A DNA stretch of 42,142 bases from Candidatus Aenigmatarchaeota archaeon (GTDB lineage: Archaea > Aenigmatarchaeota > Aenigmatarchaeia > GW2011-AR5 > JAGGXF01), in NCBI GenBank assembly GCA_021163205.1, contig JAGGXF010000039.1:1-42142 (forward strand), read 5' to 3'. The position numbers were made by a program, and so were the translations under genes. Below the pieces are notes generated by a model, which saw nothing but the letters and a program-made list of their open reading frames with translations, had not been told where the DNA came from and made no database searches. Shown here one piece after another: positions 17,738 through 25,451 of the stretch (position 1 is its first letter; each line of letters begins with the position of its first letter).

Positions 17738-17983
17738 CTAAATAACAACTCTGTAATAAAAATATATCCCAGCTGTCGGTGATTTTCTCGTGATTTTTAT
17801 TATACTTCCTCGTTTTGCATTTAGATGCTTAATGGCTGGGTCATCTTGCTTGATTTTTGGTAATTGCTTCAGAGAAACATTAAACTTTTTAAGAAGTTCC
17901 TGTGCCTCGTTGTAGCTCAGAAGTTCATGCTTGGGAACGAGGTGGTTTTTCAAAAAATTTACTTCTTTTGTTTTTTCTGTCAT
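17738..17983 (-). CDS. rpoH: DNA-directed RNA polymerase subunit H (Rpo5)
   Basis: 81-residue homologue of the C-terminal domain of eukaryotic Rpb5: NHLVPKHELLSYNEAQELLKKF, then DPAIKHLNAKRGSIIKITRKS and a YYRVVI end. The upstream open frame to 18061 runs into tRNA-Lys, so ATG 17983 is the real start, with GTGGTG upstream. A TATA-like box (GCGTATAAC, about 18012-18020) lies between tRNA-Lys and the ATG, and may drive the whole RNA polymerase operon. Confidence 0.95.
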   Translation of the reverse strand: MTEKTKEVNFLKNHLVPKHELLSYNEAQELLKKFNVSLKQLPKIKQDDPAIKHLNAKRGSIIKITRKSPTAGIYFYYRVVI

Positions 17984-18027: not shown

Positions 18028-18227
18028 TGGGCCCGACGGGATTCGAATTCGCGGACCGCAACGCAACAATACAGTGCAGTCTCCCGCGACACCCGGCTCT
18101 CTTTCCAGCTCTTCAATCAACTAAGTTTAAACTTAGATTGCTGTTAAAAGGCCGGTGCTCTATTTGCCCGGGTGTTTCTCTTGGGAGTTTTTCTAAAGAT
18201 AATCCCACCAGGCTGAGCTACGGGCCC
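18028..18227 (-). tRNA. tRNA-Lys(TTT) with three introns (D-loop, anticodon loop, T-arm)
   Basis: 200-base gene, mature about 74 bases. Acceptor GGGCCCG pairs with CGGGCCC, discriminator A; D-stem GCTC/GAGC; anticodon stem CCGGC/GCCGG with loop CTTTTAA; T-stem GCGGG/CCCGT with TTCGAAT. Introns: D-loop about 18162-18206 (44-45 bases, exact edge ambiguous after GG of the loop), anticodon 18099-18144 (46 bases, position 37/38), T-arm 18048-18082 (35 bases, position 53/54). The 37/38 intron has a CTTT/AAAG helix with bulges TAA and AGA. The T-arm intron has a CGCG/CGCG 4-bp helix, bulges GGA and AAT cut after the second base, and a 7-bp inner helix. Located between tRNA-Asp and rpoH. Confidence 0.92.
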
Positions 18228-18257: not shown

Positions 18258-18425
18258 CGCCCTAGCCGGGATTTTCACAAACCTTTCTTTGGCATTAAGC
18301 TTCTTTGGGCGTGTCTCTTTTTTCTTGGACATCCAAAGACCTTTCTTTCCAAAGAAAGGGATTTGGTTTGAACCCGGGTCGCAGCCTCGACAGGGCTACA
18401 TGCTAGTCCACTACACCACCAGGGC
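18258..18425 (-). tRNA. tRNA-Asp(GTC) with a 95-base T-loop intron
   Basis: 168-base gene, mature 73 bases. Acceptor GCCCTGG/CTAGGGC (one G-T), discriminator G73 as expected for Asp; anticodon stem TAGCC/GGCTG with loop CTGTCGA; T-stem CCGGG/CCCGG. The T-loop is split: TTCAAA ends at 18367 and the final T with the 3' half begins at 18271, so the intron (18272-18366) is at position 59/60. The bulge-helix-bulge is complete: exon helix CCGGG/CCCGG, central helix TTCA/TGAA, bulges AAC and AAT, inner helix CAAA/TTTG. The intron contains further hairpins (e.g. CCTTTCTTT with AAAGAAAGG). There is no anticodon intron. A TATA-like box lies near 18464-18476. Confidence 0.92.
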
Positions 18426-18653: not shown

Positions 18654-18801
<148 letters not shown>

Positions 18802-22389: not shown

Positions 22390-22552
22390 TCCCGCGAGTG
22401 AGATTTTCACCAGCCATTTCTTTTCTGTCAGGCTTCTCGAAAAAGCTGGATTTGAACTCACAACCTTGCGGTTTCTTTCAAAGCATGGGTTGATTTTCTC
22501 GCGCCATCGCACAAGACTACAGCCGCACGCTCTGCCATTGAGCTATCGCGGG
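22390..22552 (-). tRNA. tRNA-Tyr(GTA) with two introns (37/38 and T-loop 59/60)
   Basis: 163-base gene, mature 72 bases. Acceptor CCCGCGA/TCGCGGG with C1-G72 and A73, the archaeal tyrosine identity; D-stem GCTC/GAGC; anticodon stem TGCGG/CCGCA with GTA; T-stem GTGAG/CTCAC. Introns: 22473-22516 (44 bases, after G37) and 22404-22450 (47 bases, between TTCAAA and the last T of the T-loop). The T-loop intron has a full bulge-helix-bulge: GTGAG/CTCAC outside, central TTCA/TGAA, bulges AAT and AAT, inner helix CCAGC/GCTGG. This central helix and position are the same as in tRNA-Asp. A TATA-like box lies at about 22582-22592. Confidence 0.92.
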
Positions 22553-25168: not shown

Positions 25169-25308
25169 ACAAGCACCAAATAATTAATAGGAATTATAAT
25201 TCAACAACTATAAGAACTTTTTGTTTGAAAAAAAGATTTCTCTGCAGGTGCAGAAAGATGCGAGCAAATCAATCTGGGGTTATTTTTTGTCTGTCTTACA
25301 AAAACAAA

Positions 25309-25451
25309 GCCCCAGGAGGGAGTCGAACCCTCGACCTTTACCTTTCTAAGGGGCAGTCGCCCGTACCAAGGTAACGCTCTACCAATTTCTCCCATCTTTC
25401 CGTCCACGCTTTGCGACGAAGTCGGAAAGGGTGGTCTGAGCTACTGAGGCA
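25309..25451 (-). tRNA. tRNA-Thr(GGT) with two introns (D-loop and 37/38)
   Basis: 143-base gene, mature about 74 bases. Acceptor GCCTCAG/CTGGGGC, discriminator T73 as in archaeal tRNA-Thr; D-stem GCTC/GAGC; anticodon stem TTACC/GGTAA with loop TTGGTAA; T-stem GAGGG/CCCTC with an intact TTCGACT loop. Introns: D-loop about 25388-25436 (49-50 bases, after A14-G15), anticodon 25345-25364 (20 bases, after A37). The D-loop intron has a 7-bp inner helix (CTTTCCG/CGGAAAG) and CCA/TGG and CTC/GAG pairing next to the splice sites. The 20-base intron is a minimal hairpin (GGGC-GACT-GCCC). Confidence 0.9.

Follow-up and report, generated by a model that had tools for sequence, protein, structure and literature searches.

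The 42,142-nt window analysed here, from contig JAGGXF010000039.1 of a Candidatus Aenigmatarchaeota archaeon, carries on its minus strand a tRNA-Lys(UUU) gene (18028..18227) interrupted by three introns that bear bulge-helix-bulge (BHB) motifs, one each in the D-loop, the anticodon loop and the T-arm. This is very probably a functional gene, the introns presumably being cut by the splicing endonuclease EndA and the exons joined by the ligase RtcB. Exon 1 (18208..18227; GGGCCCGTAGCTCAGCCTGG) comprises the 5′ strands of the acceptor and D-stem and the D-loop up to G19, and is separated by intron 1 (18164..18207; 44 nt, D-loop 19/20) from exon 2 (18145..18163; ATAGAGCACCGGCCTTTTA), which holds the remaining D-arm, the 5′ strand of the anticodon stem, the anticodon UUU and A37. 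Intron 2 (18099..18144; 46 nt) lies at the canonical 37/38 position and is followed by exon 3 (18083..18098; AGCCGGGTGTCGCGGG), encompassing the 3′ strand of the anticodon stem, the variable loop and the 5′ strand of the T-stem. Intron 3 (18048..18082; 35 nt, T-arm 53/54) precedes exon 4 (18028..18047; TTCGAATCCCGTCGGGCCCA), with the T-loop, the 3′ strands of the T-stem and acceptor, and the discriminator A; CCA is not encoded. Thus, exons of 20, 19, 16 and 20 nt (75 nt) and introns of 44, 46 and 35 nt (125 nt) make up the 200 nt of the gene. The sequence-only reading that drew attention to this locus had proposed a tRNA-Lys(TTT) with three introns at exactly these coordinates, without giving the strand. 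Its gene length of 200 bases stands, and its intron total of about 126 bases becomes 125 in our count; the identity of the gene is borne out by the structure, by ARAGORN and by the empty sites and covariation described below.

The joined exons fold into a textbook cloverleaf that ARAGORN calls tRNA-Lys(ttt). The unspliced gene, in turn, receives no ARAGORN call, with introns allowed or not, and falls below the cut-off of the Rfam tRNA model. The expectation that standard scanners would overlook it therefore holds for these two programs; tRNAscan-SE 2.0 in archaeal mode strips such introns iteratively (PMC8450103).

All three introns display a BHB core of 4/4 base pairs between 3-nt bulges, with the cut after the second bulge base. 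The core of intron 1 (GCCU/GGGC, bulges GG^T and AA^A) includes one G-U pair, and the cut at 19/20 yields a D-loop as long as that of the genus-mate L029, which has no intron. Intron 2 has a CUUU/AAAG core with cuts TA^A and AG^A and uses the anticodon stem as outer helix; a single inner pair is followed by an extra G bulge. Intron 3, which has no outer helix, shows a CGCG/CGCG core, bulges GG^A and AA^T and an inner helix of 7 bp. The motifs of introns 2 and 3 are accordingly not textbook hBHBh′. Both had been described correctly beforehand, the T-arm junction with its GGA and AAT bulges cut after the second base and its 7-bp inner helix, and the 37/38 junction as CTTT/AAAG with TAA and AGA bulges.

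To parse such genes we used a finder written for this analysis, which assembles tRNA arms and permits one BHB-supported intron per arm. The tRNA-Lys gene scores 86.5, whereas 12 dinucleotide-shuffled versions of the window, scanned on both strands, reached no more than 54.1, and a chance origin is rejected. An artefact of the finder is likewise rejected, since the finder, run as a control over 66 loci from other archaea, returned plain tRNAs as intronless, including all those of Methanobrevibacter. When the letters of each intron were shuffled at fixed junctions, a perfect 4-bp core recurred with p = 0.010, 0.053 and 0.025 for introns 1 to 3, values that understate chance, given that the motif itself partly guided the choice of junctions. 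Covariation and the empty sites of orthologues provide stronger evidence than these probabilities.

The window's RpoB is 88% identical to that of L029, an Aenigmatarchaeota metagenome-assembled genome (MAG). The gene for RNA polymerase subunit H, rpoH (17738..17968, minus strand), lies directly downstream of the tRNA-Lys gene and is followed by rpoB and rpoA′; a tRNA-Lys gene upstream of rpoH-rpoB is also present in L029, L030, L033, L034, L061 and L103. Mature exons are almost identical across the four orthologues compared, whereas their intron sets differ. The D-loop site is empty in L029, L030, L061 and L103, the 37/38 site in L034, and the T-arm site in L033 and L103, so that each of the three sites is known in empty form.

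Covariation was assessed for the T-arm intron, introns 1 and 2 being absent from the orthologues or too divergent in them. The T-arm intron pattern, searched for in 156 genomes of the phylum, was matched in eight genomes from six genera, and alignment of the inner helix across these eight revealed both-sided changes in 6/7 pairs, with 97.7% of cells paired. Sliding one strand reduced pairing to 23-46% (at most 45.5%), and 0/500 shuffles matched either the paired percentage or the covariation score. The alignment mixes Lys(UUU), Lys(CUU) and Arg(UCU) genes with a common exon context; hence, the covariation concerns a motif at a given site, and just in part a single orthologous intron.

How the introns arose is a question compatible with a functional gene. 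It is conceivable, if doubtful, that they represent a dispersed mobile repeat which entered tRNA genes and was tolerated through removal by EndA. In relatives, one repeat (CCCTTTTCTT..AAAGAAAAGGtyTGGATCAaCCCcAAAGAA...), a possible mobile intron family, occurs within the introns of tRNAs for Asp, Lys and Tyr and also at numerous sites where no tRNA is recognised; the L030 genome has 35 matches. Its sites include L030 4919-5046, 5200-5296 and 13098-13148, L103 4877-4996 and 5071-5186, and L134, and it is found in genomes G156, G158 and G159. Intron transposition in Thermoproteales has been reported (Fujishima 2010, as described in PMC4090602). However, no mobile repeat was found in the window's own genome, where the intron of the neighbouring tRNA-Asp lacks a good second copy, and none of the three Lys introns matches another locus compared, save the orthologous T-arm intron of L034. 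Moreover, the repeat could have invaded introns that already existed. Spread by transposition is thus plausible for the relatives and unproven in this genome.

The tRNA-Lys gene is not exceptional within its own genome, a 91%-complete draft. Rfam marks 28 tRNA-like places (E up to 1), and our census, obtained by running the finder around these places and around further T-arm pattern matches, and covering part of the genome, comprises 35 distinct tRNA genes, which together contain 54 introns; none of the 35 is intronless. The introns reside in the D-arm (n = 21), the anticodon arm (n = 22) and the T-arm (n = 11). Nineteen genes contain one intron, 13 two and three contain three, the last being Lys(UUU), Asn(GUU) and Ile(UAU); more than one intron is thus present in 16/35. 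The BHB core is paired at 4/4 positions in 38 introns, at 3/4 in 15 and at 2/4 in one, and ARAGORN accepts all 35 spliced products as tRNAs. One census member (L194) was mis-parsed and given a wrong anticodon; inspection by eye identifies it as an initiator tRNA-Met carrying D-loop and anticodon introns. A two-intron tRNA-Met(CAT) at C7:27739, recognised by eye only, was left out of the count. An intronless tRNA-Lys(TTT) elsewhere, named beforehand as an observation that would speak against the gene, was looked for and not found in the 91%-complete assembly, from which another Lys gene could be missing; the sole other Lys tRNA found has a CTT anticodon and is likewise interrupted. An Rfam survey of the order indicates that, among the matches listed, normal-length tRNAs are absent from this genome, from the genus-mate G080 and from G062, while 21/33 strong matches of G083 measure 72-75 nt and 9/15 matches of G084 are of normal length. 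Since the order also holds genomes with many intronless tRNAs, gain or loss of the introns can be dated.

Two further readings of the gene itself can be weighed against these data. There is a slight chance that it contains fewer introns or has other borders, a segment having been misplaced or the cut lying elsewhere, for example CTTTTAA^C in place of CTTTTA^A at 37/38. The second-best parse of the finder indeed moves the 37/38 border by one base, leaving the mature sequence unchanged, and the inner helix at this site is imperfect; the preferred parse, however, places the intron canonically, with a core of 4 bp and the anticodon stem serving as outer helix, and the cloverleaf requires the loss of all three inserts. 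That the locus is a decayed tRNA-Lys pseudogene with insertions, its function supplied by another gene, is highly improbable: ARAGORN and Rfam detect no tRNA at the site, but the mature exons are perfectly paired and near-identical in orthologues, no second Lys(UUU) gene was found in the genome, the inserts bear splicing motifs, one of them with covariation, and the remaining parsed tRNA genes look alike. A phage origin was also considered and rejected, with no match among 50,697 phage records.

For the functional three-intron gene, the following pathway can be proposed from the motifs and the enzyme genes. A transcript, probably shared with the 5S rRNA and tRNA-Asp, would contain the three BHB introns; EndA would cut each motif two bases into either 3-nt bulge, RtcB would ligate the exons into a standard 75-nt tRNA, and CCA would then be added. 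The core of the T-arm motif shares the exon CGCG with the T-stem and the two structures are mutually exclusive, so that intron 3 would have to be removed, or at least its motif formed, ahead of T-stem folding.

The genome contains one RtcB gene (contig C33) and one EndA gene (contig C18; L109:1474-2079, minus strand), the latter coding for a protein of 201 aa with domains PF02778 and PF01974. The best PDB sequence match of EndA is the Nanoarchaeum equitans enzyme (3iey_A), and its model (mean pLDDT 84.6) finds its best fold match in the homotetrameric Methanocaldococcus jannaschii enzyme (1a79). In the alpha4 type, exemplified by M. jannaschii, one gene codes for about 180-200 aa that form an N- and a C-terminal domain, and no further subunit exists; the present EndA may be of this type. 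A search for a second subunit found none, EndA itself being the single match even at E 10, in a genome that is 91% complete and in which a divergent partner could be missed. Of the catalytic triad Tyr-His-Lys, Tyr and His are kept, whereas Lys156 (M. jannaschii numbering) is replaced by Ala, as it is in all 30 EndA sequences aligned from the phylum (L109 and L162-L190). The EndA proteins of the phylum also carry, just before the catalytic His, a lysine-rich insertion with conserved lysines (consensus LKKGPKSxKEHTKW). Because the catalytic lysine is absent, activity of this EndA on the tRNA-Lys motifs is not assured.

According to reviews, broad specificity belongs to the (alpha-beta)2 and epsilon2 enzymes and relies on a lysine in a loop (PMC6379350). 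An intron-saturated genome with one alpha-like EndA is not easily reconciled with this rule, and a missed partner subunit would be the simplest escape. Alternatively, and at present speculatively, Aenigmatarchaeota may pair a tRNA set saturated with introns with a functionally new type of EndA encoded by a single gene, one in which the lysine has changed to alanine and the insertion assumes the role of that lysine and confers tolerance of many intron positions. Such an enzyme would contradict the restriction of broad specificity to the (alpha-beta)2 and epsilon2 types. In either case, the absence of the usual catalytic lysine makes this EndA noteworthy.

Triple-intron tRNAs have been described in Pyrobaculum calidifontis (tRNA-Glu(UUC)) and P. 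islandicum (tRNA-Pro(UGG)) (PMC4390854), and P. calidifontis has 71 introns in 46 tRNA genes (PMC8450103), that is, 1.54 per gene, equal to the 54/35 counted here. The gene resembles those of Thermoproteales in its three BHB introns at canonical and non-canonical sites. It differs in belonging to another phylum and in the enzyme, the crenarchaeal EndA being an (alpha-beta)2 heterotetramer (PMC4090602), as opposed to the one EndA gene found here. The sequence-only reading had placed triple-intron tRNAs mainly in Thermoproteales, which proves too narrow in view of Asgard genomes and of the Thermoplasmatota MAG L063. In three genomes of the Asgard lineages Atabeyarchaeia and Freyarchaeia, 92-95% of tRNA genes contain introns, over half of them several, often at non-canonical positions (PMC11291895); ours is a different lineage, with 35/35 parsed genes interrupted and 16/35 holding more than one intron. 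L063 (5479-5671) likewise has a triple-intron tRNA-Lys(TTT) upstream of RNA-polymerase genes with one intron at 37/38, but its D-loop intron lies one base further on and its T-loop intron is at 58/59 rather than 53/54. Given that the intron sequences look unrelated, these are probably independent gains. Finally, tRNA-Ile(UAU) of Cyanidioschyzon merolae combines D-, anticodon and T-arm introns in one tRNA (PMC9602550), although in a red alga with the eukaryotic Sen complex.

Introns of this kind are therefore already known, whereas saturation seems to be undescribed in this phylum: we found no report of it for Aenigmatarchaeota in the open-access literature. The tRNA set of a small-genome DPANN lineage thereby ranks, like those of Thermoproteales and Asgard archaea, among the richest in introns known so far. 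On the practical side, tRNA counts used to judge completeness can run badly low when scanners overlook interrupted genes.

Several other RNA genes are encoded on the minus strand of the window. The tRNA-Asp(GUC) gene (18258..18425), located 30 nt upstream of tRNA-Lys, is interrupted by one 95-nt intron at 58/59 (18272-18366), and the order tRNA-Asp/tRNA-Lys is kept in L029 and L034. The 5S rRNA gene (18654..18800) has an extended helix IV; its 36-nt insert against Rfam corresponds to a 10-bp extension of this helix, and the extension in the genus-mate L029 differs. A BHB intron in the insert was considered and rejected in favour of an extended helix: a motif-like site pair is present, but excision would remove helix IV. 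The finder further recovered tRNA-Tyr(GUA) (22390..22552) with two introns, at 37/38 and in the T-loop, and tRNA-Thr(GGU) (25308..25450) with two, in the D-loop and at 37/38.

In other genomes, two Lys tRNA genes (L103 5036-5290 and L127 1299-1559), mis-parsed by the finder and read by eye, contain an intron within the anticodon stem (about 30/31) in addition to one at 37/38. In archaea, AUA is usually decoded by a tRNA-Ile with a CAU anticodon. The triple-intron tRNA-Ile of the present genome (L200 363-551, plus strand, contig C18) has the anticodon UAU.
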